In this document: in pieces, positions 14,670 to 46,526 of the stretch
Layout of the letters: each line of letters begins with the position of its first letter
Position numbering within the stretch: the stretch's first letter is position 1
DNA from: an uncultured Methanobrevibacter sp.
GTDB lineage: Archaea > Methanobacteriota > Methanobacteria > Methanobacteriales > Methanobacteriaceae
Length of the DNA: 48,945 nt
Direction of reading: 5' to 3'
Assembly: GCF_946408925.1 (NCBI RefSeq)
Contig: NZ_CAMJUE010000009.1
Span: 1 to 48,945, forward strand
Position numbers and translations under genes: made by a program
Notes under the pieces: generated by a model
What the model saw: the letters and a program-made list of their open reading frames with translations, nothing else
Told to the model about the DNA's origin: nothing
The model's database searches: none

Positions 14670-14676
14670 TATTTAA

Positions 14677-14704
14677 ACTCTATTTTTTCTTTTTTTATCT
14701 TTTA
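14677..14704 (+). terminator. T-rich archaeal terminator after adhesin copy 1
   Basis: Poly-T tracts (ctattttttctttttttatc and following) start about 10 nt after the stop codon, without a strong hairpin. Oligo-T alone is sufficient for termination in archaea. Confidence 0.5.
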
Positions 14705-14716
14705 ATTAAATACCTA

Positions 14717-14802
14717 TTTATATCATAAAAAACTTAAATACTATTATTCTATACATTTAACCAATTTTTAGTGTTTAAATTGGTATAATGGAGGTAAATT
14801 AT
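14717..14802 (+). promoter_or_regulatory. Promoter and ribosome binding site deciding a TTG start
   Basis: A TATA-like tttatatca lies near 14717-14725. GGAGGT at 14790-14795 overlaps the upstream ATG (14788) and is 7 nt before TTG 14803, so TTG 14803 is the better start. Confidence 0.5.
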
Positions 14803-19347: not shown

Positions 19348-19358
19348 GATTTGATAAG

Positions 19359-22300: not shown

Positions 22301-23828
22301 AGGCAATGAATTCAACAATCCGGTAAGTATCAAAGCGCAAGTTGTCGATGAGAACAACAATCCTGTCAAAAGAGGATTTGTCGTATTTTTAGTGTCAGAT
22401 GAATACTATACAGTTGATGTTGGAAACGGAACTGCATATTTAAATCATACCTTCACTGAAATAGGTGAAAATGAGGTTTTTGCAGGATTCACAGATTATT
22501 ACTTATATAATATGTCCATATCTAACTCAACAGTCAACGTTTCAAAAATGAAAATCAATCTTACATTCAGCAGGATAATTAATGAATGTGATGCAATTTT
22601 TGGTATCGGCATTAGGGACTGCGCCCGTGGATTCAGAATAATCATTGACTTAAACGGAACAGTGTCATATTACACCTCAACTGAAGGATATGTATTGGCG
22701 GAAATGAAAAACCTTGAAAAAGGCCATTACAACTACACTGTCAGACTTGCAAGCCCAATATATGATGCAGAGGATATTAAAGGGGAATTTGACATTGTCC
22801 ATCAAAGGACAAGCCTGATTGCAAGGGATGCAAATATATATTATGGCGGCCAATACCAGGTAATCCTAAAGGATAATTCAGGAAAAATAATTTCCAGTCG
22901 TGATGTTTACCTTACAATCAACGGTCATACCTACAAAAAACGAACTGATGAAAACGGGGTTGCACTTTTTGATATTTCCGTACCTGCCGGTGCTTATGAT
23001 GCAAAAATCAACTTTATAGGGGATGACGAATACCTAAAATCATCAGATATTGTTAAAATCATTTCAATTTCCACAATTGAATTCAAGTCAACAAAGTATC
23101 CTACAGATTCCAATTATCAGGCTACATTGCGTGATTCAAACGGTAAGCTATTGGTAAATCAGAAAGTGGAAGTTTCAATAAATGGAAAAACCTATAATTC
23201 AATTTCAGATAAAAACGGACAGGTTTCAGTAAACCTCAATTTGGCTGTTGGGCCATGCAGTGTTAAGATAACAAATCCTCTAACTGGTGAAGTCAGACTC
23301 CAAACGGTCAGCATAATAGAAAGAATAGTCCAAAACAGGGATTTGACAATATACTATGGCTCAACTACCTTATTCAAGGTTAGGGTATATGATGATTCGG
23401 CCAAATTTTCAAAAGGCCTTAAGGTAACATTCAGGATAAGCGGTAAAACATATTATGGAGTTACCGACAAAAACGGCTATGCATCAGTTAAACTGACTCA
23501 AAAACCGGGAACATACAATATTGTTGTTCAATATAAAAATTATAAGGTCTCCAATAAAATTAAAATCAAATCCACTATAATAACCAAGGACATTAAGGTT
23601 AAAAAATCAAAGACAATAAAGTTCACCGCAAAACTTGTGAATTCCAAGGGAAAAATCCTTAAAAACAAGAAGATCACTTTCAAGTTCAAGGGTAAAGTCT
23701 ATAAGGTTAAAACCAACAAGAAGGGAAATGCTGTTTTAAAAATCACCAAAAAATACAGGAAAGGAAAATATACAATAACTTCCAGATATGGAAAATTAAC
23801 AATAAAAAATAAGATAAGGATAATATGA
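19359..23828 (+). CDS. Adhesin-like protein with papain-like (C1A) cysteine peptidase domain, copy 3
   Basis: The 1489-residue product follows the same plan: signal peptide ('LLLFSMVLILIMIPQVFG'), beta-helix repeats (about 45-390), and a C1A domain with 'PSKNQINGGNCWAFATI'. Catalytic residues are Cys426, His569 ('GDHAVELVGWDD') and Asn595 ('AKNSWGEDWG'). A lectin-like module, Ig-like modules and a lysine-rich C-terminus complete it. The usual 'YDLR..G.VTPVKNQ' before the active site is altered to 'SRYTSPATPSKNQ', so the start of the mature peptidase differs from its paralogues. Translation may be coupled to copy 2 (11-nt gap; an AGGTAGG-like site overlaps the preceding stop). It ends 3 nt from the convergent thymidylate synthase gene. 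Confidence 0.85.
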   Translation: MFNKRLLLLFSMVLILIMIPQVFGEENVTDSLSADFNETLLSDSQDIYFDSNASHDHGEGTLDNPYRQLRDGRILDGSVIHLKNGEYNYTCLNSHNDISFIGQDASKTIINGNGGVLLVNNRITLTNVTICNLVIFNQADLTASNTFFVNSSGTKINSNSFGGAIYCVDKTHNANLVNCTFMNNYADFGGAIYLNGGNIEIDDCSFINNTAYNYGGAIACEGSDSKTPRVTIKKSRFISDSSLSDAGGAIYLKSVIFNALDLNISSANATFGGAMCLLKSNSNITGLNAYNNTAGFNGGAIYQMYGNLSVHNSHFQKNHAKNGAGIFSDNAHFIDAQNNRFINNSASMHAGAFYLLFNNNSSVKNNTYLNNNAGKYDDFLNQSVLSVIVHDSDYILFNNEIYDSALPSRYTSPATPSKNQINGGNCWAFATIAALESAILKASGEEIDLSEENMKNIAALYSTYGWNMETNQGGYDNMGLGYLVSWIGPVFDSQDPYKGNTVLSPLLDAVMHVQNIEFLKRTSVNDLNSIKKAIRDYGGVYSSIYMMAYYNPQAGAYVQCYRGNLPGDHAVELVGWDDNFYIPGAPGRGAWIAKNSWGEDWGSNGYFYVSYYDTSCPKLNVDEAAFAFILNDTMKYDKNYQYDIAKTDYFMNTTKTVWYKNIFKATDNEYLAAVSTYFQKETSWDLTIKINNVLKLTKSGKSNPGYYTLDLGQMIPMNVGDVFEVMFRITVDKDAGVPISEKLSLNNYFYHENISYISYDGNNWKDLYSLPGEYPDHYYESQVACIKAFTILNPIQTTLTLSIENRSPDKADVVAEVLNQWGYAVNCGEVTFKVDGQTYTVNVSSGKALMEIPFKSCNISAQFNAVGYNSSGMKIELANPLVNTHITLNVTGNYNPINITANITDEYGKPVKYGYVVFIVGGEEYVADVKDGIAGLENIYVQPVEFEIEAYYEDSFYYNSSYAIKSHQLSRINTRIYLDITGNEFNNPVSIKAQVVDENNNPVKRGFVVFLVSDEYYTVDVGNGTAYLNHTFTEIGENEVFAGFTDYYLYNMSISNSTVNVSKMKINLTFSRIINECDAIFGIGIRDCARGFRIIIDLNGTVSYYTSTEGYVLAEMKNLEKGHYNYTVRLASPIYDAEDIKGEFDIVHQRTSLIARDANIYYGGQYQVILKDNSGKIISSRDVYLTINGHTYKKRTDENGVALFDISVPAGAYDAKINFIGDDEYLKSSDIVKIISISTIEFKSTKYPTDSNYQATLRDSNGKLLVNQKVEVSINGKTYNSISDKNGQVSVNLNLAVGPCSVKITNPLTGEVRLQTVSIIERIVQNRDLTIYYGSTTLFKVRVYDDSAKFSKGLKVTFRISGKTYYGVTDKNGYASVKLTQKPGTYNIVVQYKNYKVSNKIKIKSTIITKDIKVKKSKTIKFTAKLVNSKGKILKNKKITFKFKGKVYKVKTNKKGNAVLKITKKYRKGKYTITSRYGKLTIKNKIRII

Positions 23829-31315: not shown

Positions 31316-32164
31316 ATGATTAATGAAGTTATTATAGATAGGCTGGATGAACTCGTTGGGGATTATGACACTCCATTTTTCAATTACCTTCTCTACTCTT
31401 ACGACTTGAGTTTGAATGATTGTGAACAGATTATTGAAGAGTTGAAAAGTGATATAAATTCCGGCAAACTCATTACTGATAATGTTGCATCCTCTTTGGA
31501 GGATTATTTCAAATCAAAAGTAATTGAGCTTGAAAAACAGGAAAAAATCAAATTTTTATCTGGCCTAATACAGGAGGATAATGACTTCTATATAAAATAC
31601 CTTAAGCGATATGATTTAACACGGGATGACGTCAATCTGATTTATGACCGTGTGGAATCCAAAATCCTTGAGGATAACATCAGTGATTTTGAAATAAAAA
31701 GATATCTTGACTATTACTTCTCAAATTCCGTAAAGCAGGTTTCATATATAAATGAGCTGAACAGCATTGTGGGACGGGCCTATGATACATTAATCATCAG
31801 GAATACCTTAAAAAAATATCCCATTTTAGTTGAAAAGGACATTATTGAGATTGTATTCAGGATTCACGGTGAAATAATAGAAGCGCGTGAATTTAAAAAT
31901 GGAATAAAACATGAATTCAAAAGGCTGTGTCTAATCAGGAGTGAGGATAAGAAGGCCCAATGCAGACGCAGGCTGAATGAATTTGTTGAGGGAAGCGGAG
32001 ATTCATTTTCCAAGCTGATCAAATTTAAAAAGCTGACAAAAAGGGATGGGGACATCATAGTTTCACAGATACAGGATGACATTTCAAAGGGTCTGATTCA
32101 GCCAGACCGAATCGACAGTGTTTTTATAACAAAACGTTTTAATGATTACAATGAGAGACAGTAG
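31316..32164 (+). CDS. Hypothetical protein of four degenerate alpha-helical repeats, helicase partner
   Basis: The 282-residue product has no recognised domain, but four units of about 70 residues align by eye, starting near residues 3, 74, 143 and 212. Each has the pattern 'F..YL..YDLT..D...I...V...I', then 'I.D..I...L..YF' (for example 'YIKYLKRYDLTRDDVNLIYD' in unit 2). Unit 3 is the most diverged. The repeats are probably alpha-helical pairs forming a scaffold. Its gene overlaps the start of the UvrD-type helicase gene by 23 nt, a strong sign that the two proteins are made together and may act in one complex. No ribosome binding site is seen before the ATG. Confidence 0.7.
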   Translation: MINEVIIDRLDELVGDYDTPFFNYLLYSYDLSLNDCEQIIEELKSDINSGKLITDNVASSLEDYFKSKVIELEKQEKIKFLSGLIQEDNDFYIKYLKRYDLTRDDVNLIYDRVESKILEDNISDFEIKRYLDYYFSNSVKQVSYINELNSIVGRAYDTLIIRNTLKKYPILVEKDIIEIVFRIHGEIIEAREFKNGIKHEFKRLCLIRSEDKKAQCRRRLNEFVEGSGDSFSKLIKFKKLTKRDGDIIVSQIQDDISKGLIQPDRIDSVFITKRFNDYNERQ

Positions 32165-35100
32165 TGTTTTTACTTTTCTAAAAAGCAAATTCGGCAATTT
32201 ATATGGCCTGTGCAGTGTCATGGAAAAACTGATTGTTTTAAAAAAATACAATCTTGCCATGGCATGCGCAAAGGTGATTCTTGATGTGTTTTGCCGTCAG
32301 ACCAAAAAGCAGCTTGTATTCACTATTGATGTTTTCAACGACCCTCAGCTGACAATAACACTTGATGATATGAAAAGCGTTCACCAGATACTGTTTGAGT
32401 ATATCTATGACGATTATTTTTTAGGTATCGAGGAGTTCCTGCAGGTCGACTATGAATTCGACTTCTCTTTTTTGAGCCACAGTCCGAAAATCACCAACGA
32501 CGACATTTACATGATTGTGGACAATCTTGAGGTCAACTCAATAACACCCTCACTCATAGGCCTTGAAGGTGATGAGCTGATCTCCATTGAGGATTTAAGC
32601 TCTGAAGATAAGGAAAACGTTTTGAATATGGTTGAAGGCAATCTGAATCAGTTCATAAAAAAGCATATTCTCACATTGAATCTATTTGACAGTGAAGGAA
32701 ACCTCCTGACAAAGCCGTTAAACTTTGAGGCAGTCAGAAAAGCCGACCGTTGCATTGTAGGTGAGATTCCTCCTGAAGTTGAACTGGACGAGTATCAAAG
32801 CGACGCTGTCACATACACCGGAAAGCCGCTGGTAATAAATGCAGGTCCCGGAGCCGGAAAGACACGCGTGATAATCGAAAGGGTGCTTTATCTTATTGAA
32901 AACGGTGCATCACCGGAATCTATTCTTGTGATTACATTTACAAACAAGGCTGCAGATGAGCTTCGCGAGAGATTTAAAAAGGATACAAAACTTGAACTCA
33001 ATGTGATAAATCAGATGAGGATAAGTACAATTCACAGTTTCTGCAGATCAATTCTATCAGATTTCTCAGACATTCCATACAATCTTCTTAAAAGGGAATC
33101 GGAAAGGAATCTCTTTTTCAACAAGCACAGACAAGACCTCGGATTTAAGGGACCTGCATTTTTGAGAAATTACGAATCAGGCCAGGTTCTTAAAAAATAT
33201 GATGAATTCGCACTCTTTGAAGTTGATTCGGAAGGCCTTATAGGATATATTGAGTCTAAATACCATCCAAGCGATGAATATCTCAAATACATTGATGAAT
33301 ACTACAAAACTCATCCCGACACCCAATACCCGACCAAAAAGGAGATAAAGGCACTGGGCTTCAGGTGTGATGTTTACAAGGCAAGGTATCTTCAGATTGC
33401 CAGGTCATACACCGACTGGATAGATTTGATGGAATCCGAACATGTCTGTGACCAGAACTATCTTCTTGTTAAGGCGCTGGAACTTCTATCGGACAGGGAC
33501 AATTTAAACAGGGTTCAGTACCGCAATGTCCTCATTGATGAGTTTCAGGACACCGATGCAATTCAGATGCAGATATTTGAACTTTTAAGATGTATTGCAG
33601 ATACATTCACGGTTGTGGGTGATGCTGACCAGAGCATATACTCATTCAGGGCTGCCAATCCCAAATTTTTCAACGATTATTCAAGAAGCGATGAGTTTGA
33701 AAAGAAAATCCTTGTGAACAATTACCGTTCAACATCAGACATTGTCGAGTTCAATGAGAAATTCATAAGCAAGAAGCGTTCAAACCCTAAGGACTTAAAA
33801 ACAGTCAATGAATCAAAGATGCCTGTCTACATGCTTGAAAACAAGCGTGATGATGATGAGTACCGGGGAATAGCATATATCATTAAAAACCTTAAAAGCT
33901 CCGGTAAGATCACCAAATACAGTGATGTCTGCATACTTTTCAGAAGCCATAAGGACAAAAAGGACATTCTTGAGGAATTTGAAAAGGAAAACATTCCATA
34001 TTACCTTAAGGGAATCGACGATTTGATTTATCAGGATGAGGTCAAGGCGGTTCTGGCACTTTTATGGTATATGATGCCGTTCAACCCTTCACTGATTGCA
34101 TATTACGGTGACGGAGGCCAATGGATAAACCTGTCCTCATTCACAGACAAGTATTACGAATCATCAAAGGTATTTCACCTGTCAGCTAAAACCCAGGAGG
34201 TATTAAACGACATCGAGCAGAGATACCATTATAATGTGGTCAATGTTAAAAACAACTTCAAGCCATTGGACTCCAATGCCAAATCCTCTTCAATAATGGA
34301 TGTTGTCCGGGACTATGCAGATGATACTCTGGATGAAATATTCAAACAGGCAGGCATAATAGACTTAAGCACATACTCCCGTGATGAGCTTAAATCCATC
34401 GGCATTACAGATGAACATGACCTTGACTTTTTCACCGGCCTCAACGAGCTTAAATCATCACTGGGTGATGTCAGACTGACCTCACTGCAGGTGTATTATG
34501 AGCTTTTGAAAATAACAGGCTACGGCGATGAGCTCTTTTCAAGAAAGGACTTCGAGGCCAAAAAGGCGGCTCTCAACCTTGCACTGATATCGGAAATAAT
34601 CTCCGATTATGAAAACATCATGGGAAAATATGATCTTATAGGACTGTTTAACTACATATACCGCTCACTGAAGTATTATTCATGTCCGATCAACGAGGAG
34701 GAGGACAACTCACAGAAGGTCCATATCATGACAGTCCACAAGGCAAAGGGACTTGAGTATCCGGTTGTAATCACCGCTTCAATCAAGGACCGAAGTTTTC
34801 CCCTTAAGTTCTCAGCCCAGAGAAAGGCCCATGTCTTTAACAACTATCCGGTTTACCCGACACCGAACAGGTTTTTAAAGTATAAGATTTCAGAGGATGA
34901 GGAACCCTTTGAATTTGACCGTGAAGAGGAACGGGTGGTTTATGTTGCAAATACTCGTGCTGAGGAATTGCTTATACTGTCGACTGTACTTCCAAGAACC
35001 GGAAGCAAAACACCTGCTGTTTTAAGGGATTATGAAAATGATTTGGTTAAAATCGAGCCTGCCGATGTATTCGCCATGAAAAAGGTGACTTCACATATGA

Positions 35101-35825
35101 TTCGTGACACCAGTCTCTTCAATCAGATAGAGTTTGAGGATATCCTGGAGGATTATCTTTTCTGTCCTTTAAAATTCAATCTCGAAAGCAACCTCAAGTT
35201 TAAAAATCCGAAAAACATCAACAAGTTCATCGATTCCAAACTGCGCGTCATTGTAAACCGTCTTCACAATGACAAGTTCATGACAGACTGGGACAGTGAA
35301 AGCATTGAAAATCTGGTTTCGGAAGTGATAAAATCATACTCATTTGCATCAAGCGAAAAGAAACTGAAAAAGCTGTTTGGCAATTTCACCGAATACTGGA
35401 GTGATTACGGAAGAAACTTCGATGTGGTGAAAACCTCCCATGATGTGAGCCTTGAAGTTGGAGGCTATGACATCAACGGAGTTATCGATTTGATCATCAC
35501 AGACGGTGAGGGCGTGAGTCTGGTTCACTTCATACGAACACGTGACGGCATGAAAAACTACCATTCATTTTACATGGAACTTTTAGGCTATTATGCACTT
35601 GCCCTGAAGGAGAGGGAGGATATTGATGTTGAAAACCTGATGCTTTATGTTCTCGACGAGGCAAAACTCTACGAAAAGCAATTTGTCAGGGATGAGTTCA
35701 TAATGGAGTATCTTGAAGGTGTGGTCGGCAAGATTTCAGATGATGACTACTCAAAACATTTCGTAAACTGCGGTGAATGTGAATTCAGCGGACTGATCTG
35801 CCAGCATGACAATCTATTTAACTGA
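32142..35825 (+). CDS. UvrD/PcrA-type helicase with N-terminal extension and Cas4/AddB-like C-terminus
   Basis: The 1227-residue product is a superfamily 1A helicase. A helical N-terminal extension of about 215 residues comes first. The helicase motifs follow: 'LDEYQSDAV', Walker A 'AGPGAGKT' (Lys240), 'TIHSFCRSIL', motif II 'LIDEFQDTD' (Asp466, Glu467), 'GDADQSIYSFRAANP', 'VHKAKGLEYP' (866-875) and 'VVYVANTRAEE' (motif VI, Arg939). The C-terminal part resembles the RecB/AddB/Cas4 nuclease fold with a four-Cys iron-sulfur pattern: Cys1008 in 'YLFCPLKF' and Cys1210, Cys1213, Cys1220 in 'CGECEFSGLIC'. The nuclease core keeps 'GVIDLI' (Asp1116), but the expected '(D/E)xK' strand reads 'SLVHFIRTRDG', so cleavage is probably lost. 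ATP-driven DNA unwinding in repair or defence is inferred. Confidence 0.85.
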   Translation: MITMRDSSVFTFLKSKFGNLYGLCSVMEKLIVLKKYNLAMACAKVILDVFCRQTKKQLVFTIDVFNDPQLTITLDDMKSVHQILFEYIYDDYFLGIEEFLQVDYEFDFSFLSHSPKITNDDIYMIVDNLEVNSITPSLIGLEGDELISIEDLSSEDKENVLNMVEGNLNQFIKKHILTLNLFDSEGNLLTKPLNFEAVRKADRCIVGEIPPEVELDEYQSDAVTYTGKPLVINAGPGAGKTRVIIERVLYLIENGASPESILVITFTNKAADELRERFKKDTKLELNVINQMRISTIHSFCRSILSDFSDIPYNLLKRESERNLFFNKHRQDLGFKGPAFLRNYESGQVLKKYDEFALFEVDSEGLIGYIESKYHPSDEYLKYIDEYYKTHPDTQYPTKKEIKALGFRCDVYKARYLQIARSYTDWIDLMESEHVCDQNYLLVKALELLSDRDNLNRVQYRNVLIDEFQDTDAIQMQIFELLRCIADTFTVVGDADQSIYSFRAANPKFFNDYSRSDEFEKKILVNNYRSTSDIVEFNEKFISKKRSNPKDLKTVNESKMPVYMLENKRDDDEYRGIAYIIKNLKSSGKITKYSDVCILFRSHKDKKDILEEFEKENIPYYLKGIDDLIYQDEVKAVLALLWYMMPFNPSLIAYYGDGGQWINLSSFTDKYYESSKVFHLSAKTQEVLNDIEQRYHYNVVNVKNNFKPLDSNAKSSSIMDVVRDYADDTLDEIFKQAGIIDLSTYSRDELKSIGITDEHDLDFFTGLNELKSSLGDVRLTSLQVYYELLKITGYGDELFSRKDFEAKKAALNLALISEIISDYENIMGKYDLIGLFNYIYRSLKYYSCPINEEEDNSQKVHIMTVHKAKGLEYPVVITASIKDRSFPLKFSAQRKAHVFNNYPVYPTPNRFLKYKISEDEEPFEFDREEERVVYVANTRAEELLILSTVLPRTGSKTPAVLRDYENDLVKIEPADVFAMKKVTSHMIRDTSLFNQIEFEDILEDYLFCPLKFNLESNLKFKNPKNINKFIDSKLRVIVNRLHNDKFMTDWDSESIENLVSEVIKSYSFASSEKKLKKLFGNFTEYWSDYGRNFDVVKTSHDVSLEVGGYDINGVIDLIITDGEGVSLVHFIRTRDGMKNYHSFYMELLGYYALALKEREDIDVENLMLYVLDEAKLYEKQFVRDEFIMEYLEGVVGKISDDDYSKHFVNCGECEFSGLICQHDNLFN

Positions 35826-35846
35826 CCGTTTTTAAAAGTATATGTG

Positions 35847-36743
35847 ATGAGATTTAATGTTCCCGATGAGCTTGAATTTGAAGTTTCAGATAACCGTGTA
35901 AGATTCACAGTTGATGATTTGTCAACCGGCTGGATGGGTGTGGATGATTCATTCATAAGAAGAGTTGAAAAGGATAAGTTAAACCCTGATCGTCTGGTTA
36001 AACATCTCAAAAAGGAAATTGAGATGAAAAATGTTCTTGATGAGGGAATCTCTTTTTTGAAAGCTGAAAAATACCTGAAAGCCATTGAAAAGTTTGATGA
36101 GGTGCTTTTCTATGATCCATGTTATGGCGAGGCATTGCTTCAAAAGTCATTTTCTCTTCGCCGTCAAAGGCATTTTGTTAAGTCACTCAGATATTATAAA
36201 AAGGCGATAAAATCCGATGAAACATTGAGTGATATTGAATATCACAAGGCCCTTTTAAGAAATGCCAATGAGGAGCGGGACAATTTTCCCAAACTGAAAC
36301 TTAACATATATGCAGGGGATGAGTACTTCTCCAGGGGAGATTTTGAAAGTGCCGTTAAAAAGTATGATGTGGCCCTTGCAAACCCTTCAAAATTCAAGGA
36401 TAAGATACTTTCCAAATTGCTGAATAAAAAGGCAACTGCGCTTTTGAGATTAAATGACTATGATGGAGCATTGGAATGCTTTTTGAAATCCCTGGATGTT
36501 GGTGAAAATGACTATGCAGTATTCGGTGAAGGATATTGTCAGTATAAGTTGGGATTAAATGTGGATGATAAGTTTTTAAAGCCTTTGAATATTACCAAAA
36601 AAGAGATGCTGACTCAGGCCATTGTTTTAGGTGATTTGGGATATTCTAAACAGTCTTTGGATATCTGTGAGTATCTATTGGAAAACCATTTCACCCAGGA
36701 TGAATTCTATATGAAACTGATGCACATCATGGGCAATGTCTAG
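35847..36743 (+). CDS. TPR-repeat protein, third gene of the helicase operon
   Basis: The 298-residue product begins with a beta-rich N-terminus ('FNVPDELEFEVSDNRVRF'). Tetratricopeptide repeats follow from about residue 65 ('YLKAIEKFDEVLFYDPCYG', 'HFVKSLRYYKKAIKSDE', 'DFESAVKKYDVALANPS', 'DYDGALECFLKSLDVG'). TPRs form a scaffold for protein contacts. The ATG at 35847 has a GTG just before it as alternative. Only 21 nt separate it from the helicase stop, so co-transcription and a shared complex are likely. Partner and function are not known. Confidence 0.8.
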   Translation: MRFNVPDELEFEVSDNRVRFTVDDLSTGWMGVDDSFIRRVEKDKLNPDRLVKHLKKEIEMKNVLDEGISFLKAEKYLKAIEKFDEVLFYDPCYGEALLQKSFSLRRQRHFVKSLRYYKKAIKSDETLSDIEYHKALLRNANEERDNFPKLKLNIYAGDEYFSRGDFESAVKKYDVALANPSKFKDKILSKLLNKKATALLRLNDYDGALECFLKSLDVGENDYAVFGEGYCQYKLGLNVDDKFLKPLNITKKEMLTQAIVLGDLGYSKQSLDICEYLLENHFTQDEFYMKLMHIMGNV

Positions 36744-39796: not shown

Positions 39797-40708
39797 ATGC
39801 TTGAAGAATTACTTGACTTATGCGAATACCAATACGTCATGGGAGATTATAAAAATCTCATCGAGACATGTGATGAAGTATTGAAAATCAAAAAAGACGA
39901 ACCTGTAAGCCTGAATTATAAAGCAATATCTCTGTACTATCTTCAAAGATATGATGAATCTCTTGAATTGTTGGATTACTGTTTAAACCTGCATCCAACC
40001 AATCACTACACACTAAACAACAAGGCATTGGTATATATTGCTTTAAAGGATTATGAAAATGCATTGAAATGTGCTGAAGAAGGCCTTAAAAGCAGAAATC
40101 TGGACTGGCTTCAAATAAACAAGATCGAATCACTGATTTATCTTGGAAGAGTTGACGAAGCATACGAATACTACCAAAGCGTAAACATTCCCAATTATAC
40201 CTTTGAGGAGGCACTGGACAACTGTGGAGTAGCCGACAATCCGTTAAAAATCCAATATGAAAAGTTAAATGAACTTTTCAACGATAAAAAATACGAAAAA
40301 GTAGTTGAGCTATGCGATAGTGCAAAAACAGATGAAAAAATCCTTAATTATAAAATAGTGGCACTTATCTATCTGGAAAGGTTTGATGAGGCATTGGAAT
40401 CTGTTGAAAGGGCAATCGAATCATATCCATATAATCCTGATTTTCATTTTATAAAAGCAAGGATATATGTCATCACCAAAAATCTGGATGGTGCAATCAA
40501 AAGCTATGAAGAGGCATTTGGGATTGATGGGCTGAGTAACAACCGTCTTGAGATAAACAGATACAATAACTGTCTGGACATCAAATCAAAACAGATGATT
40601 GATTCCGGGGATTATGACGGAGCCATAACAAACCTTGAAAAAATCATAAAAACCAAACAGGGAAAGTTCGAATCAATTATGGGGGGGGTGATTGAATGGC
40701 AATTGTGA
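39797..40708 (+). CDS. TPR-repeat protein, first gene of the DUF2779 nuclease operon
   Basis: The 303-residue product is built of tetratricopeptide repeats ('DYKNLIETCDEVLKIKKDE', 'RYDESLELLDYCLNLHP', 'DYENALKCAEEGLKSR', 'RFDEALESVERAIESYP', 'NLDGAIKSYEEAFGID'), giving a scaffold for protein contacts. GAGGTG lies 5 nt before the ATG. A G8 run at 40681-40688 lies in the last codons: with seven G the protein would end at once ('SIMGG'), with eight it continues through 'VIEWQL'. The next gene overlaps its end by 13 nt. Confidence 0.8.
   Translation: MLEELLDLCEYQYVMGDYKNLIETCDEVLKIKKDEPVSLNYKAISLYYLQRYDESLELLDYCLNLHPTNHYTLNNKALVYIALKDYENALKCAEEGLKSRNLDWLQINKIESLIYLGRVDEAYEYYQSVNIPNYTFEEALDNCGVADNPLKIQYEKLNELFNDKKYEKVVELCDSAKTDEKILNYKIVALIYLERFDEALESVERAIESYPYNPDFHFIKARIYVITKNLDGAIKSYEEAFGIDGLSNNRLEINRYNNCLDIKSKQMIDSGDYDGAITNLEKIIKTKQGKFESIMGGVIEWQL
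40681..40688 (+). repeat. G8 homopolymer at a gene junction
   Basis: Eight consecutive G in a very AT-rich genome, placed in the last codons of the TPR gene and in the ribosome binding site of the next gene (ATG 40696). Loss of one G moves the stop to TGA 40689-40691 in present numbering. Confidence 0.8.
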
Positions 40709-41388
40709 ATGAGTGTATATGTGCCGATTGCGATTTGGAACTTGTTGATGACGAAAGGCTGTTTTATTATGACTCCGATTCGGAGCAAACAATAGATTAT
40801 CTCCTGTTGATGTCAACAGTTGGATGGGGAGACACTTCCAGGATAAGGGGAAAGGTAACTGAAACATACTGCAGCAGGTGTGATAAACACATAAGAATCT
40901 ATTCAATCCGTGAAATCATTGGGGAAGTTGAAAATCCCTGCAGCATAATAGAAAAGGGAATAGCCAGGCGCATCAGCAATCATCTTGAAAGATTAAATGA
41001 ACTGAATGAAATCAAAAAAAGAGAAAAATACGAGTTGATTCAAAAGGAAAATCATTATGGGGTGATATTTCCTGATTTTGAAAATTTACACTTTTCATAT
41101 TCTTATTTCCCTCAGATGACAAAAGAAGATGTTATTGAAGATGCATTAAAAAGCTTTCATGAGGAAATTGATGGGGAACTGGAATCATTAACCGAAAAAT
41201 ATAAACGGGCAGAAAAAGCATTATCTCTGATAATTGATGAAAGGGACAGGCCATATGACGATGATGATGCCTTAGAAAAGATCAGTTGTCCCGAATGCGG
41301 ATCAAAAATCAGTAAAAACATTAATTATACTGAATGTCCGAGATGTGGCGGAAATAATCTGATGTATAGTACAATATGCTATGACTAG
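40696..41388 (+). CDS. Zinc-ribbon protein with a HicB-like middle segment
   Basis: The 230-residue product has an N-terminal Cys set ('CICADCDLE' and 'YCSRCDKHIR') and a C-terminal zinc ribbon ('ISCPECGSK' and 'TECPRCGGNN'). The middle ('YGVIFPDFENLHFSYSYF' then 'KEDVIEDALKSFHEEI') resembles the HicB/UPF0150 fold, in which a strand ending '.FPD' is followed by a helix with 'EA...A...L'. That resemblance is weak. The strong G-rich ribosome binding site overlaps the previous gene. Role unknown; in the operon it may link the TPR protein and the nuclease. Confidence 0.7.
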   Translation: MAIVNECICADCDLELVDDERLFYYDSDSEQTIDYLLLMSTVGWGDTSRIRGKVTETYCSRCDKHIRIYSIREIIGEVENPCSIIEKGIARRISNHLERLNELNEIKKREKYELIQKENHYGVIFPDFENLHFSYSYFPQMTKEDVIEDALKSFHEEIDGELESLTEKYKRAEKALSLIIDERDRPYDDDDALEKISCPECGSKISKNINYTECPRCGGNNLMYSTICYD

Positions 41389-41395
41389 GTGAATT

Positions 41396-42055
41396 ATGGA
41401 CAAATTAAAGATGTTTTCGGGAAATGCATGCTTTCTTGTAAAAAATACCTCAGATACAATGTCTCGAAAGGATTTTGAAAAATACCTCTCCGATGAGGGA
41501 TTTGAAAAGTTCAAAAAATACTCATGGTGTGACAGAGGATCATTCTACATCAATGTTAACAGTCTCAGATATTCTGCAGGGGTTTGCAAAGCGGCGCCCC
41601 TTACAGGCACTATAGTCGGCGAAAGCATAAAAAACCCCCTCAGCATCGATGAGTTCAGGATCATATGGAACATATTGAAAGGACACATTCAGGAATTCAC
41701 ACCCTCAAATGAGATTAGAAAAGGCTGTTCAACAATATTTGTGGCTGATGAAATACTTGACGGATATCACAATGAATTCATTGATTATCTTGAAGAGGAA
41801 GACTTCAAGGCACTTGCCGATGACAGTTACGGTGGAAGGGGATTTGTGGCCGTGAATGTTAAAAGTAGGGTCTATTCAAAAGGTAATATGGCAAACATGA
41901 TTATGTCAGGTCATCTTGGAAGCAATTCAAATTGCGCCCTGACTGCTGATGAGTTCAAAACAGTTTGGAGGATACTTAAAAAACACTGGATGGATAAATC
42001 CCCTCAAAAGGCCTTAAAACATCAAACTCCATCTGATGAATTAATGAACGGTTAG
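41396..42055 (+). CDS. Hypothetical protein with internal duplication
   Basis: The 219-residue product is not recognised. Two halves of about 90 residues resemble each other: 'CFLVKNTSD..FEKYLSDEGFEKF' with 'RGSFYINVNSLRYSAG' and 'LSIDEFRIIWNILKGH' in the first, and 'STIFVADEI..FIDYLEEEDFKAL' with 'RGFVAVNVKSRVYSKG' and 'LTADEFKTVWRILKKH' in the second. AGGTG precedes the ATG by 5 nt. A one-base change near its end would join it to the following 66-codon fragment, so the annotated C-terminus may be an artefact. Confidence 0.65.
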   Translation: MDKLKMFSGNACFLVKNTSDTMSRKDFEKYLSDEGFEKFKKYSWCDRGSFYINVNSLRYSAGVCKAAPLTGTIVGESIKNPLSIDEFRIIWNILKGHIQEFTPSNEIRKGCSTIFVADEILDGYHNEFIDYLEEEDFKALADDSYGGRGFVAVNVKSRVYSKGNMANMIMSGHLGSNSNCALTADEFKTVWRILKKHWMDKSPQKALKHQTPSDELMNG

Positions 42056-42258
42056 CAAAATGCAGTAAGTTTGGTGATTACTCGGGCATTGGAGAATACA
42101 TTGAGGATGTTAAATTCTGTCTTGTTCATCTTTCCCGTTTCAGCAGGGAAGATGCCAAAAATTTCGCTGAAAATAAAAAGGATGAGATTATAAATTATTA
42201 TAACAGTAAAATTTCTGCAGAGGATTTGGCATTTGATTATTACAGTATCTGTGGCTGA
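42040..42258 (+). pseudogene. Coding fragment without a start, probable C-terminal extension of the preceding gene
   Basis: An open frame of 72 codons without ATG, GTG or TTG in its first two thirds reads like real protein ('GDYSGIGEYIEDVKFCLV', 'FSREDAKNFAENKKDEI', 'ISAEDLAFDYYSICG'). It is in the -1 frame relative to the duplicated protein and begins just where that protein ends. One extra base near 42047-42050 (aacgg to aaccgg) would fuse them into about 285 residues. Family not recognised. Confidence 0.5.
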
Positions 42259-42279
42259 CTTAAAACTGGAGGTGATATC

Positions 42280-43764
42280 ATGAATGAATTATTTTTAACA
42301 AAATCCGGCTATTGCCACTGTGTTCAATGCAAAAAGATTTTCTGGCTGGATAAATACAAAAAAGATGCGGCAGTGGAAGAGGACAGTGATTCCATTTTAA
42401 AAACAGGTATGGAAGTTGGTGAGCTTGCAAAAGGACTGTTTGGAGACTATCATGACATTCCCTTTAACGAGGATATTAGTGTCCGGATAGAACAAACAAG
42501 AAAGTTAGCTAAAAAAGGCAATGTCATTGCAGAAGCATCGTTCAGTTATAACAACAACTTCTGCAGTGTGGATATCCTTAAAAATGATGATGACGGCGTT
42601 GAAATATACGAGGTCAAAAGTTCCACCAAAATCAAGGACATATACCTGGACGATATTTCATACCAGTACTTTGTCGTGTCCAATCTTGGATATAATGTTA
42701 AAAAAGCTTGCATTGTATATATAAACAATGAATATGTAAGGGGAGATGATTTGGACTTGACCTGGCTGTTCAGGATTGAAGATGTAACCGGCACTGTTCT
42801 TGAAAAGCAGGATGAGATAAAAAACAATATCGATGCAATCAATGGGTTCATGGAAAAACACGGCATCGACAGTGAACCTGAAACGGATTTGGGAATGCAC
42901 TGCTTTAATCCATACCACTGCAGGTTCTGGGATTACTGCACCCGTGATCTTCCAAAGCCAAATGTATTTGACATCTCAGGAATGTTCAAGTCAAAGAAAA
43001 TCGAAAAGTACCATGAAGGCAAAGTTTCCTTTGAGGATCTGGCCGGTGAAAAACTGAATGCGAAATACCTTGAACAGATCGATTTTGAGCTCAACAACAG
43101 GCCTCCAAAAATCATCAAAGGAGCAATCAGTGCCATTTTGGACTCTCTTGAATATCCGTTATACTTTATCGATTATGAAAGCTGCCAATATGCAGTTCCT
43201 GAAATCATTGGCACAAAGCCATACCAGCAGATACCGTTCCAGTACTCTCTCCATATAATCCGTGAGGAGGGCGCTCCGGTGGAACATAAGGAGTTTCTCG
43301 CACAGGAGGATGATGAAAATCTAATCAGACACTTTGCCGAAAGCATGATTGGAGACATGCCTGAAAACGGCAGTGTAATAGTATACAATAAGGGCTTTGA
43401 AGCAAGCAGAAACAAGGAAATAGCCAGAATGTATCCTGATTTGGCACCTGAAATGGAAAGAATCAACTCCAACATCGTTGATTTGATGGTTCCTTTCAGA
43501 GCGAGGGACTACTATACCCGTGAAATGAAGGGTTCATATTCAATCAAGTATGTGCTTCCTGCGCTGTATCCTGATGATGAGGAACTTGATTATTCCAACC
43601 TTCCTGTTGTTCATAATGGTGGTGAGGCATCCGAAGCATTTTTAAGCCTTAAAGACAAGACATCCGATGAACGGGAAAAAATCAGAGATGGGCTGCTTGA
43701 ATACTGCAGGCTGGATACCTTGGCAATGGTGAAGATTTGGGAGAAATTCCTTGAAGTTGCATGA
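42280..43764 (+). CDS. DUF2779 protein: Cas4-like Fe-S nuclease fused to a DEDD exonuclease
   Basis: The 494-residue product has two nuclease parts. The first is a PD-(D/E)xK domain with Asp98 and 'YEVKSST' (Glu111, Lys113), all present, plus an iron-sulfur Cys pattern: N-terminal 'CHCVQCKKIFWL' and 'HCFNPYHCRFWDYC' (Cys208, 214, 220), as in Cas4. The second is an RNase H-like exonuclease (DUF2779) with 'YFIDYESCQ' (Asp298, Glu300), 'NIVDLMVPF' (Asp401) and 'LEYCRLDTL' (Tyr475, Asp479), a complete DEDDy set. It is likely a cytoplasmic DNA- or RNA-trimming enzyme. No cas genes are in the window. GGAGGTGAT precedes the ATG. It is the last gene of the operon from 39797. Confidence 0.85.
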   Translation: MNELFLTKSGYCHCVQCKKIFWLDKYKKDAAVEEDSDSILKTGMEVGELAKGLFGDYHDIPFNEDISVRIEQTRKLAKKGNVIAEASFSYNNNFCSVDILKNDDDGVEIYEVKSSTKIKDIYLDDISYQYFVVSNLGYNVKKACIVYINNEYVRGDDLDLTWLFRIEDVTGTVLEKQDEIKNNIDAINGFMEKHGIDSEPETDLGMHCFNPYHCRFWDYCTRDLPKPNVFDISGMFKSKKIEKYHEGKVSFEDLAGEKLNAKYLEQIDFELNNRPPKIIKGAISAILDSLEYPLYFIDYESCQYAVPEIIGTKPYQQIPFQYSLHIIREEGAPVEHKEFLAQEDDENLIRHFAESMIGDMPENGSVIVYNKGFEASRNKEIARMYPDLAPEMERINSNIVDLMVPFRARDYYTREMKGSYSIKYVLPALYPDDEELDYSNLPVVHNGGEASEAFLSLKDKTSDEREKIRDGLLEYCRLDTLAMVKIWEKFLEVA

Positions 43765-43810
43765 TTGTGAATGTTTATAAAAAGATTACATGTTAATTCC
43801 TTTAAAATCA

Positions 43811-43823
43811 CCAATTATATATA
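43811..43823 (+). promoter_or_regulatory. TATA box of the zinc-ribbon cluster
   Basis: ccaattatatata lies about 25-35 nt before ATG 43847, which has no ribosome binding site, fitting a leaderless transcript. Confidence 0.45.
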
Positions 43824-43846
43824 TCTTCTTAACAAAAGTGTATAAT

Positions 43847-44617
43847 ATGTTTTGTGAAAAATGTGGAAAGGAAATTCCTGACGGTGTGAAATTCTGTCCC
43901 TCATGCGGACATGATAACCAAAATCACATTAATGCGGGCAAATCTCCTTCAAAAGATAAAAATCTGATTTTAGCTTTAGTCATTTCATTTCTTTTAACCG
44001 GTCTTGGAATAGTATATGCCGGCGATAAGAAAAAAGGGATAATACTGTTTATTGTGGGATTGGTATTGAATATTATTGGAAGAGCAATACCTATACTGAC
44101 AGTTGCCGGAATTATAGTCTGGGCATATGGATTGTATGAAACCTACAATCAGGCAAAAATTGCAAATGGTGTGGCAAATCCGAATCTTATTGAAGACATC
44201 AAATCTCTTCCGACACCCAAAAAAGTTGCGGCGATTGCAGTCATCGCAATAATCTTTTTACTGGTTGTTGGAGGATGTGTTGGAGCATTGATGCCAAAAA
44301 CTTACACATCAAACGATAATAATTATAATTATGATGTCGGCAGTGCGGATGATTCATCATCAAGCGGCGGTTCAGGCAGTGGATTAAGCTATTCATCTTC
44401 TGATTCCTCCAAAGGATATGATACTCATACACACTATGAGGGAGAATATGGATCCTCAGATACCTACGGAACCGTGAATGATGATGGAAGTGTTGATTCA
44501 TATCAGAAAGGGACAACCGATTATGGAGACTATGAAATAAATTCCCACATGGATAGTGACGGAAACATTCACGGCACTGTTGATGTCGGTGGAAAAACAT
44601 ACCATGTTGACACATAA
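43847..44617 (+). CDS. Zinc-ribbon membrane protein with TM2-like helices and extracellular tail
   Basis: The 256-residue product begins with a zinc ribbon ('MFCEKCGKEIPDGVKFCPSC', Cys3, 6, 17, 20). Helices resembling a TM2-like module follow ('LILALVISFLLTGLGIVYAG', 'GIILFIVGLVLNIIGRAI', 'LTVAGIIVWAYGLYETYN'), then a further helix ('VAAIAVIAIIFLLVVGG') and a Ser/Tyr/Asp-rich tail of about 95 residues likely outside the cell. ATG 43847 is preferred to an upstream in-frame start because of the TATA spacing and because the zinc ribbon starts there. Function unknown; such proteins often act in membrane stress or signalling. Confidence 0.75.
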   Translation: MFCEKCGKEIPDGVKFCPSCGHDNQNHINAGKSPSKDKNLILALVISFLLTGLGIVYAGDKKKGIILFIVGLVLNIIGRAIPILTVAGIIVWAYGLYETYNQAKIANGVANPNLIEDIKSLPTPKKVAAIAVIAIIFLLVVGGCVGALMPKTYTSNDNNYNYDVGSADDSSSSGGSGSGLSYSSSDSSKGYDTHTHYEGEYGSSDTYGTVNDDGSVDSYQKGTTDYGDYEINSHMDSDGNIHGTVDVGGKTYHVDT

Positions 44618-44630
44618 ATAAGTGATTTTT

Positions 44631-45104
44631 ATGGTAAAATGTCAGAATTGTGGAAGTGAAATGGAAGAGGGGGCAAAGTTCTGCAGGAACTGCGGAAGTG
44701 AAATTGCTGCTGAGACAGAAACAAATGTTAAGTACTGCAGAAAATGCGGTTTTGAGTTACCTGATGAAAACATTAAATTCTGCCCGTCATGCGGAGCATC
44801 AACCTCTTCTGAATTACAGGAAATTGCTGCTGATTTGGTTTTAAATGCTCATAAAAACCCTATATTGGCGGCAATATTGTCCTTTTTCATCATTGGGTTA
44901 GGTCAGATATATATTGGTTTGACAAAAAAAGGAATAATATTGTTTGTCTCAGCAATAGTCTGTGGAATTTTGGGACTTATAATTATCGGATGGATTTTAT
45001 GGATTATTGTTTGGATTTATGGTATATATGATGCATACAATTCCGCAAACAAGATGAGCATGGGAATTGGTGTAAAAGACACAATAGACTTCAACGATTT
45101 GTAG
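44631..45104 (+). CDS. Double zinc-ribbon TM2-like membrane protein
   Basis: The 157-residue product starts at ATG 44631 (GTGAT just upstream). It has two zinc ribbons ('CQNCGSEMEEGAKFCRNCG', then 'CRKCGFELPDENIKFCPSCG') and a TM2-like pair of helices ('ILAAILSFFIIGLGQIYIG', 'GIILFVSAIVCGILGLIIIG') with a third ('WILWIIVWIYGIYDAYN'). It is clearly a relative of the preceding gene, so this is a local duplication with loss of the tail. The gap to it is 13 nt and to the next gene 13 nt. Confidence 0.8.
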   Translation: MVKCQNCGSEMEEGAKFCRNCGSEIAAETETNVKYCRKCGFELPDENIKFCPSCGASTSSELQEIAADLVLNAHKNPILAAILSFFIIGLGQIYIGLTKKGIILFVSAIVCGILGLIIIGWILWIIVWIYGIYDAYNSANKMSMGIGVKDTIDFNDL

Positions 45105-45117
45105 CGGAGGAAATAAT

Positions 45118-45642
45118 ATGGTGAAATACTGCACCGAATGTGGAACTCAACTTGATGACAGTGCAATTTTCTGCACTAACTGTGGAACTAAAATCGATTT
45201 CGGGCCGGAAACCAGAAGTAATAGGTATATGAAGCATCTTGAAAAGACAGGTCGAAAAAGGGCCAATATTCCACGTCTTGGTGGCATAGATGAATTCAGA
45301 GATGATTCCATTGTCATCAAAAAGACAGGTGAAGTAATCATGATCAGGGATATTGAAAACTTCAGTCTCCACCAGAGTTCCCGCAGTCTGTGGAGTGATG
45401 TCAAGGTCGATTTTGACTATAACGGCCTTCATTACAGAACACAGCAGGCCGGGTCTGATAAAGGTAAACTGCAAACTTTGGAAAACAAAATCAAAGCAAG
45501 GGACATGCAGAAATATGCCAATGCTGAAAGCAATCCCGAAAATAAAATCGATAAGCTTAAGGAACTGAAGGAATTGCGGGATGCCGGAATTGTAAATGAT
45601 GAGGAGTTCCTTAAATTAAAAGATGAGATAATAAACGGATGA
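45118..45642 (+). CDS. Zinc-ribbon protein with PH-like middle and SHOCT C-terminus
   Basis: The 174-residue soluble product has a zinc ribbon ('YCTECGTQLDDSAIFCTNCG'). A beta-rich middle ('GEVIMIRDIENFSLHQSS', 'KVDFDYNGLHYRTQQAG') resembles small bacterial PH-like domains, and a SHOCT motif closes it ('KIDKLKELKELRDAGIVNDE' then 'EFLKLKDEII'). SHOCT segments are short helical oligomerisation elements. GGAGG lies 8 nt before the ATG. It is in one transcript with the two membrane zinc-ribbon genes upstream. Confidence 0.75.
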   Translation: MVKYCTECGTQLDDSAIFCTNCGTKIDFGPETRSNRYMKHLEKTGRKRANIPRLGGIDEFRDDSIVIKKTGEVIMIRDIENFSLHQSSRSLWSDVKVDFDYNGLHYRTQQAGSDKGKLQTLENKIKARDMQKYANAESNPENKIDKLKELKELRDAGIVNDEEFLKLKDEIING

Positions 45643-45698: not shown

Positions 45699-46526
45699 AT
45701 GGATAATCTTGAAGAGTTGAAAAAACAGACTCAAGTTGATAATTCAAAACTTGAGGAAATGATGAAAGAGGAAATAACACCTCAAATGCAGATAAGATTC
45801 TTTAACTTGCTTAGAAAGTCACAATTGTACCTGCCGATAACTCCATCGGCAAACATGTTTGAAGGAATCGAGAATGCAAAGGAAGGGGATGTTTTTCAAA
45901 CAGACGGGCCTGCAGGATTTGACATCAACTATCTCAGTGATGAAGATGGAAACAGGGCAGTGCCATTGTTTACAAGCGAGGAAGCTATGGATAAAGCGAA
46001 TATGAGATCATCTGTAATGGTGATGTTTGCGCCGGACATTGCAGACCTGCTCAAGCAGTCAGACAGATACAGCGTAGTTGCAGTAAACCCCTTCACCGAG
46101 CATGATATCTTCATGCCGATTGAAGGTTTTCTCGGAATTTTTGATGAGGATGCTCATGAAGAGGAAGAGATGATAGAAGCAATCAATGAAATTCTTGAAG
46201 TTTTAAGGAATCATTCCTATGTTCTTGAAAATGAAATGGCATTCATGGTAAGGCTTGATGAAAACTCAATGAGGGACAATGCCGTTGACGGGGTTTTCAT
46301 ACCTGACATGCCGATGAACATGAGCACTGATAAGGATTTCCGTACAGATTTGAAATATGCCAACATCATCATTTTTGAGAAAGGCAAAAAGGTTCTGCCC
46401 CTGGGAAAAACCGAAAATGACGTATATGACACCATTGTGGCACCGGGTACAGAATTTATATTGGAAAGAGAAATTGATGAGTTCACTACACTTTGGAGAT
46501 GCGGAAATCAGCCGTTCTATGACTAA
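45699..46526 (+). CDS. SseB-family protein
   Basis: The 275-residue product carries an SseB-like N-terminal domain: 'QIRFFNLLRKSQLYLPI', then 'VPLFTSEEAMDKANM', the usual signature in which the protein 'stores' a small residue-binding fold. A second domain with a similar pattern ends 'EIDEFTTLWRCGNQPFYD'. SseB was named for enhanced serine sensitivity in E. coli, and the molecular role in archaea is not known. GGAGGT lies 7 nt before the ATG. A T-rich stretch (45663-45672) before it may end the upstream transcript. Confidence 0.7.
   Translation: MDNLEELKKQTQVDNSKLEEMMKEEITPQMQIRFFNLLRKSQLYLPITPSANMFEGIENAKEGDVFQTDGPAGFDINYLSDEDGNRAVPLFTSEEAMDKANMRSSVMVMFAPDIADLLKQSDRYSVVAVNPFTEHDIFMPIEGFLGIFDEDAHEEEEMIEAINEILEVLRNHSYVLENEMAFMVRLDENSMRDNAVDGVFIPDMPMNMSTDKDFRTDLKYANIIIFEKGKKVLPLGKTENDVYDTIVAPGTEFILEREIDEFTTLWRCGNQPFYD

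Follow-up and report, generated by a model that had tools for sequence, protein, structure and literature searches.

The DUF2779 protein encoded at 42280-43764 of the analysed DNA (a 48,945-nt stretch from an uncultured Methanobrevibacter sp., here called the window) was found to join two predicted DNA-degrading folds in one chain, a Cas4-like domain and an exonuclease domain of the family-B-polymerase type. On balance, we favour the view that it is an accessory, horizontally spread enzyme that degrades DNA ends in defence islands and is sometimes paired with a helicase. The features of the region are the following:

31316-32164, + strand: 282-aa protein located 5' of the helicase, an order kept in genome G104
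32142-35825, + strand: large helicase of the UvrD family that ends in a Cas4/RecB-like domain, in the same island as the nuclease
35844-36743, + strand: second TPR protein directly 3' of the helicase, with the same order in G104
39797-40708, + strand: TPR protein of 303 aa (ORF list, Pfam)
40696-41388, + strand: zinc-ribbon-like protein of 230 aa with two CxxC pairs, one per end (ORF list, Pfam)
41396-42055, + strand: ORF3, 219 aa, an internally duplicated domain without assigned function, frameshifted near its 3' end
42040-42258, + strand: rest of the ORF3 C-terminus in another frame, 72 codons followed by a stop
42267-42279, + strand: strong Shine-Dalgarno-like stretch directly 5' of the nuclease start codon, read in the sequence
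42280-43764, + strand: DUF2779 nuclease of 494 aa, with a Cas4-like PD-(D/E)XK domain (1-230) and a predicted 3'-5' exonuclease domain of the family-B-polymerase type (291-494)
45699-46526, + strand: SseB-like protein (Pfam SseB, E 1e-18)

Domain architecture and conserved residues of the nuclease

The four + strand open reading frames listed in the preliminary description, from the TPR gene to the nuclease gene, were found where it had placed them. The nuclease matched the complete Pfam DUF2779 profile (PF11074, positions 1-126 of 126) with 152 bits at a cut-off of 23.3, while the Pfam Cas4 family (PF01930) scored 16.7 bits, under its cut-off of 22.7. A weak match was returned by PADLOC Cas4 (E 5e-4); such weak Cas4 matches were the only ones in the PADLOC 2023 library, and none of its models for named defence systems matched the protein. 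RNase_H_2 (PF13482) remained without a hit up to E 1, and sequence searches of solved structures retrieved no true relative.

The structure was modelled with AlphaFold2 using a 55-sequence alignment, resulting in a pLDDT of 94.1 and a pTM of 0.87; an earlier model built from 16 close homologues was poor, with a pLDDT of 65. VIA-align comparison of the good model showed a Z score of 14.2 over 181 residues to chain 7mi5_A of a Cas4-Cas1-Cas2 complex, Z scores of 13.5-15.2 between residues 291-494 and the exonuclease domains of family-B polymerases, and extensive structural similarity to YprB-like proteins of giant viruses. In the model, residues 1-230 adopt the Cas4 fold and residues 291-494 an RNase H-like exonuclease fold of the family-B-polymerase type.

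Residue conservation was evaluated in an alignment of 54 of 80 loci plus the window, from which broken, partial and near-redundant genes had been excluded. The PD-(D/E)XK core (E85, D98, E111, K113, Q129), previously described as complete, and the Cas4-type cysteine set (C17, C208, C214, C220) were invariant in 55/55 homologues, and the Cas4-like domain probably carries an iron-sulphur cluster. The DEDDy set, also described as complete, required a correction: D298, E300, Y475 and D479 were invariant in all 55, and each of these proteins has Glu (E374) in place of Asp as its second acid. This motif II was placed by pattern, because a profile alignment to the polymerase B of the same genome failed. 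The gene is under purifying selection, with dN/dS values of 0.08-0.12 in five pairs. The protein is predicted to be an active nuclease with DNA as its substrate. No biochemical test or tested function of the DUF2779 family was found in the literature.

A role as a CRISPR adaptation gene was rejected, since no CRISPR-like repeat array was present in 24000-48945 and Cas1 was not found in the assembly (G000, 88% complete), in agreement with the earlier remark that no CRISPR lies nearby.

Distribution, helicases and defence genes near the nuclease

The DUF2779 gene is patchy, occurring in 32/151 genomes of the phylum, and within the genus a match was present in 21/60 genomes, four of them with broken genes or mere fragments and a fifth with a gene cut by the contig end. 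This is not a housekeeping pattern. In a quick tree with SH-aLRT support, from which the broken or partial L038, L040, L041, L042, L086, L119, L131 and L134 were left out, the archaeal sequences were nested among rumen bacterial ones; the gene is horizontally shared between rumen bacteria and methanogens. Matches in phage records were restricted to 87 residues in six Helicobacter heilmannii phage records.

The helicase of the window (UvrD-helicase, E 4e-55; UvrD_C, E 1e-37), whose gene is overlapped by 23 nt by the 282-aa gene, has lost the [D/E]xK nuclease motif of its C-terminal domain, which reads HFIRT here and HFIK in G104; six relatives carry DYK or DFK. A large UvrD gene was located within 15 kb of DUF2779 in 8/35 genomes where 0.44 were expected (P 6e-9); these eight cases belong to about four lineages and are thus not eight independent events. 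As a control, the shorter Rep-like UvrD was found at this distance in 0/34 genomes having it. The UvrD and methylase lists were limited to hits with E values of roughly 1e-10 and below, and draft-genome sizes were rounded. These counts bore out the earlier proposal that nuclease and helicase belong to one DNA-processing island; the 4 kb said to separate the two groups of genes is 3 kb when measured from the end of the helicase-associated TPR gene (36743) to the first gene considered here. UvrD and DUF2779 genes lay on the same strand with spacings of 43 nt in G085 and 25 nt in G087. Across genomes, a large UvrD occurred in 22/32 with the nuclease and in 68/119 without it, and was not significantly commoner in the former (P 0.31). 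Its presence showed no dependence on the nuclease, so that partnership with the helicase is not obligatory.

Restriction and other defence genes were also found in the neighbourhood. McrBC lay within 15 kb of DUF2779 in 3/35 genomes (0.13 expected), the McrC gene of G009 running into the nuclease start, and Azaca ZacABC occurred in L028 with homologues in L035, PglX beside a nuclease remnant in L042 and GmrSD in L036. An association with restriction methylases in general was rejected, as N6-methylases, a restriction marker, were within 15 kb in 1/35 genomes against 1.05 expected. In bacterial loci, WYL proteins accounted for 11/106 adjacent proteins vs 1/106 distant ones in the same loci; none was detected in the 30 archaeal loci tested. 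Plasmid copies of DUF2779 were near WYL, PD-(D/E)XK, AAA and type I restriction genes. The SseB-like family adjoins DUF2779 in four Methanobrevibacter loci (L079, L085, L036, L083).

Characterised Cas4 enzymes have 5'-3' polarity. In the favoured reading, that of an end-degrading enzyme of defence islands, the Cas4-like domain is predicted to attack one strand with this polarity and the polymerase-proofreading-type domain to attack the other in the 3'-5' direction. DUF2779 is a widely shared family whose two DNA-degrading folds are expected to work with opposite polarities. Foreign DNA that is broken or unwound would be cleared in this way, after restriction by systems such as McrBC or after a UvrD helicase has opened the ends, and in bacteria the adjacent WYL regulator probably controls expression of the nuclease. 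The TPR, zinc-ribbon and ORF3 genes are, in this reading, separate accessory genes moving through the same variable regions, not required partners. Points that speak against the reading are the unenriched N6-methylases, the lack of genome-level dependence on UvrD, the small number of UvrD lineages, the missing match to a named PADLOC system, the absence of WYL from the archaeal loci tested and the Glu in the exonuclease set. The links to UvrD helicases, McrBC and WYL give DUF2779 a concrete, testable place in host-virus conflict.

The UvrD co-localisation and the same-strand neighbours in G085 and G087 would also fit a role in recombination and repair, in which the nuclease is loosely associated with UvrD-type helicases and, similar to AddAB/RecBCD, processes broken ends of the cell's DNA more than foreign DNA; the window helicase has no [D/E]xK motif of its own, and a separate nuclease could therefore supply that function. 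We consider this account possible but distinctly less probable, as a patchy, often broken gene does not fit core repair, dependence on UvrD is not seen at the genome level, and McrBC, Azaca, PglX and GmrSD neighbours argue against it. Rather doubtful, and slightly more so, is a bolder reading of a helicase-nuclease machine with two components. In it, a UvrD-type helicase, whose own nuclease domain is dead in the window, unwinds invading or restricted DNA, DUF2779 serves as the detachable nuclease that degrades both strands at once with opposite polarities, and the bacterial WYL protein is a sensor of nucleic acid or damage that switches the module on. If true, it would represent an uncharted RecBCD-like defence module common to archaea and rumen bacteria.

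Gene order around the nuclease

Of 88 loci, one was dropped as a duplicate (L137). The contexts of the nuclease differ widely across 18 relative loci, and at one site the set of neighbours changes between G000, G104 and G045. Such variation, together with a four-gene order found nowhere else, might indicate that the nuclease acts alone and that its neighbours merely share chromosome hot spots where accessory genes land. We regard this as improbable, since UvrD and McrBC are enriched while N6-methylases and the Rep-like UvrD are not, and the WYL adjacency in bacteria also speaks against it.

The overlapping or close spacing of the upstream genes, pointed out in the preliminary description, was retrieved. 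The domains and conserved residues go beyond chance; the order of the four genes is not conserved. The TPR and zinc-ribbon-like genes share 13 nt, and ORF3 begins 7 nt after the latter. A frameshift near 42040 truncates ORF3, whose homologous C-terminus can be read in another frame as far as 42258 and is 55-57% identical to its counterparts in G017, G044 and G052; the apparent 224-nt gap to the nuclease therefore corresponds to a true spacer of about 21 nt. The TPR gene matched Pfam TPR_2 (E 6e-22), all Pfam scores of zinc-ribbon families for 40696-41388 were below cut-off, and no Pfam family matched ORF3 (41396-42055). An Rfam search gave no match, no terminator-like site was found, and a promoter scan with a bacterial promoter model, which does not cover archaea, remained at chance level.

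All four genes occurred together in 0/18 relative loci and in 0/86 other non-redundant nuclease loci, and a TPR gene and a zinc-ribbon gene stand as a pair of their own in G059, G040 and G023, three other genomes that lack a DUF2779 gene; a conserved four-gene operon was thus rejected, and for the complete set this is the outcome that the preliminary description had named as refuting it, genes that are not neighbours elsewhere. Partly to the contrary, ORF3 and nuclease do pair in other genomes, as the ORF3 family adjoins the nuclease in G118, lies beside a nuclease remnant in G017 and is 2.4 kb upstream in G052. The tight spacing and this pairing would favour an operon in which all four genes work together and the TPR and zinc-ribbon proteins act as a sensor or scaffold. 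Such an operon is very unlikely and largely refuted by the absence of the set elsewhere, the independent TPR-zinc-ribbon pair and the broken ORF3. The genes around the nuclease look like a local assembly and not a fixed machine.

Comparison with known systems

The two-domain plan of the nuclease is also that of YprB-like Cas4 + RNase H_2 proteins and of COG2251, which is of the TM0106 type and has DUF83. The nuclease differs from both in lacking a PF13482 match and a helicase domain in the same chain.

With Cas4 and solo-Cas4, as presented in the relevant passages of PMC5704561, the nuclease shares the fold (Z 14.2), the PD-(D/E)XK residues, the four cysteines and a location with no CRISPR nearby. 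It differs in scoring below the Pfam Cas4 cut-off, in the fused exonuclease domain and in the lack of Cas1 in the assembly. The UvrD-Cas4 fusions treated in the same passages have the layout of the window helicase (32142-35825), and relatives of this helicase lie near DUF2779; however, the window fusion has lost [D/E]xK, and the type III restriction partners given there were not noted beside it.

A further close counterpart is family F.17 in Majorek et al. 2014 (PMC3985635); the DUF83+DUF2779 architecture was published in 2014. The passages of that paper on F.17 contain neither a tested function nor a gene neighbourhood or a structure, and presume a 3'-5' exonuclease. They assign DUF2779 (PF11074) to a DUF83 + RNase H-like architecture, and the nuclease of the window has the same Pfam domain (152 bits) and the same plan.

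The four-gene stretch and its relatives

The source assembly of the window is that of a methanogen (2.3 Mb, 88% complete; the window is its contig C9), with Methanobrevibacter and Methanosphaera as relatives. Four genes occupy the stretch 39797-43764:

39797-40708, + strand, TPR protein (Pfam)
40696-41388, + strand, 230-aa zinc-ribbon protein with CxxC pairs
41396-42055, + strand, 219-aa protein (ORF3), without Pfam match
42280-43764, + strand, DUF2779 protein (Pfam), the nuclease

The TPR gene and the 230-aa gene overlap by 13 nt, and a 7-nt gap follows before ORF3. The 224 nt between ORF3 and the nuclease are mostly ORF3 continuing in another frame; since this continuation is readable up to 42258, ORF3 is either frameshifted in the window or affected by an assembly error. 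Intact homologues exist in other genomes. The ORF3 family (41396-42258 in the window) shows an internal duplication by self-matches and no Pfam match, and the relative in genome G052 (locus L040) carries a TPR insert.

The preliminary description had proposed that these genes form an operon, and their co-occurrence was checked in other genomes. The full set was found in 0 of 18 relative loci and in none of 86 non-redundant nuclease loci (E 1e-3), which does not bear out a fixed four-gene operon; in the same 86 loci and at the same threshold, relatives of the TPR protein occurred in 6, of the zinc-ribbon protein in 1 and of ORF3 in 1. Full-length relatives of the zinc-ribbon protein are present in six genomes including the window's, four of which (the window's, G059, G040 and G023) have the TPR gene directly 5'; when 60 genomes of the genus were searched for DUF2779, G059, G040 and G023 gave none. 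ORF3 relatives occur in 5 of these 60 genomes, the window's included. The nuclease lies downstream of ORF3 in the window's genome and 2.4 kb on in G052, a 49-codon nuclease remnant follows ORF3 in G017, the nuclease does not follow it in G044, and G013 has no more than an ORF3 fragment, close to the end of a contig. A more distant relative of ORF3 (35-39%) stands one gene before DUF2779 in G118. Thus the pairs TPR-zinc-ribbon and ORF3-nuclease reappear in these genomes, and the four-gene set does not.

Three zinc-ribbon proteins in a row, two with membrane segments by eye, were seen 3' of the nuclease (43790-45642), and similar genes are scattered around many nuclease relatives. The translations of 9936-23828, judged by eye, show three consecutive very long secreted proteins that contain repeats and the signature GNCWAFA of papain-like peptidases.

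Fold and conserved residues of the nuclease

The nuclease was modeled from an alignment of 55 archaeal and bacterial sequences (pLDDT 94.1, pTM 0.87). Superposition of the predicted structure matches residues 1-230 to Cas4 7mi5_A (Z 14.2, 3.3 A, 181 residues) and residues 291-494 to the family-B polymerase exonuclease domain (Z 13.5-15.2, 2.5-3.7 A, 161-178 residues). E85, D98, E111, K113, Q129, C17, C208, C214 and C220 are identical in 55/55 sequences, in agreement with the PD-(D/E)xK core and Cas4-type cysteines described previously. The exonuclease half is likewise identical in 55/55 at D298, E300, N370, F373, E374, D401, Y475 and D479, and its putative motifs were assigned by pattern and fold as D298/E300, E374 and Y475/D479. 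By this assignment the second acid is Glu (E374), unlike the classical DEDDy set, and the "complete DEDDy set" has to be amended. A sequence-profile alignment did not align this half with the genome's own polymerase B. Majorek et al. 2014 already describe DUF83 together with DUF2779 and presume 3'-5' exonuclease activity (PMC3985635).

Distribution of the nuclease and nearness to the helicase

The dN/dS values of the nuclease were 0.08-0.12 (five pairs). A match was present in 21/60 genomes of the genus; the gene is broken in G013 and G055, present as fragments alone in G041 and G015, and truncated at a contig end in G052. The family occurs in 32/151 genomes of the phylum. Further remnants adjoin ORF3 in G017 and lie close to the intact copy of G104. 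Remnants alone or adjoining intact copies (L178 14723-14791, L162 1494-1643, L041 9783-9947, L042 7101-7178) indicate fast gain and loss. A quick tree was built from 84 sequences. It places its 24 archaeal rows together with 10 bacterial ones in one supported group of 34, itself within rumen Firmicutes, and requires at least 3 label changes. Misbinning may affect some of the bacterial contigs, an example being L069, labeled Erysipelotrichaceae, with 92% protein identity to L065 from Methanobrevibacter.

Nearness was evaluated in 35 genomes (the 32 positives plus G015, G041 and G052, with fragments), with expected values computed from genome size and copy number. A large UvrD lay <15 kb from DUF2779 in 8/35 genomes versus 0.44 expected (P 6e-9) and <5 kb in 3/35 versus 0.15 (P 4e-4), and McrBC <15 kb in 3 versus 0.13 (P 2e-4); the Rep-like UvrD used as control gave 0 versus 0.50 at <15 kb, and N6_Mtase showed no enrichment (1 versus 1.05). 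The eight UvrD cases represent about four lineages by identity (G009/G014/G047, G085/G087, G000/G104, G125; G000 is the window's genome). Large UvrD helicases lie close to the nuclease in more genomes than chance would give, which supports the proposal of one DNA-processing island. Presence of a large UvrD did not differ significantly between genomes with and without the nuclease (22/32 versus 68/119, P 0.31).

The helicase is directly 5' of the nuclease on the same strand in G085 (43 nt) and G087 (25 nt), and the order in G009 is McrB-McrC-nuclease-zinc-ribbon-UvrD. The helicase block of the window recurs in G104 at the corresponding chromosomal site, where the helicase is 62% identical and the nuclease lies about 13 kb further on; the TPR-zinc-ribbon-ORF3 genes are absent there. 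This three-gene block (window 31316-36743; L179 5091-10643), consisting of a 282-aa protein, a UvrD with an extra N-terminal region and a TPR protein, keeps its order at 46, 62 and 45% identity. The C-terminal Cas4/RecB-like domain of the window helicase (32142-35825) keeps its cysteines and has lost the [D/E]xK motif (HFIRT), as in G104 (HFIK); six relatives retain it. Judging from the lost motif, a nuclease supplied in trans would be an attractive idea.

Neighbors and possible function

An accessory gene under purifying selection, the nuclease sits in regions that are variable and rich in defence genes. ZacA, ZacB and ZacC, the genes of the Azaca system, lie near it in L028 (PADLOC, E 1e-85 or better, one 264-aa gene between), with homologues in L035. 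PglX adjoins the remnant of L042 (PADLOC), GmrSD is found in L036 and McrBC in L088, which is the G009 locus (both Pfam), and an ADP-ribosylglycohydrolase lies directly by the nuclease in L091 (Pfam). Clustering placed similar genes near DUF2779 in 7/87 archaeal and bacterial loci (L091 10233-11168, L076, L114, L040, L083, L123, L094), one member being checked by Pfam.

Accessory status, purifying selection, location and the nearby helicase fit degradation of foreign DNA ends; the same evidence fits repair, which is the main rival reading. A transposon insertion in a Mycoplasma bovis DUF2779 gene appears in a table of selected mutants in PMC7373297.

Across 57 bacterial loci, members of a WYL-type cluster (one of them checked by Pfam) occupied 9/105 adjacent gene places versus 16/723 others (P 0.002), and PADLOC's most frequent WYL model matched 11/106 adjacent versus 1/106 distant proteins (P 0.005); none of 30 archaeal loci had a cluster member. 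Matches occurred in 31 plasmid records. Among 11 plasmid regions inspected, the WYL gene is immediately 3' of the nuclease in Aliarcobacter butzleri, Rhodoferax and Diaphorobacter plasmids and farther away in others. Two betaproteobacterial plasmids (L171 5848-10462, L172 5733-10467) carry a double-AAA protein (IetA-like, PADLOC), DUF2779 and WYL in a row, possibly a three-gene system. WYL proteins are known to regulate phage defence (PMC9122601).
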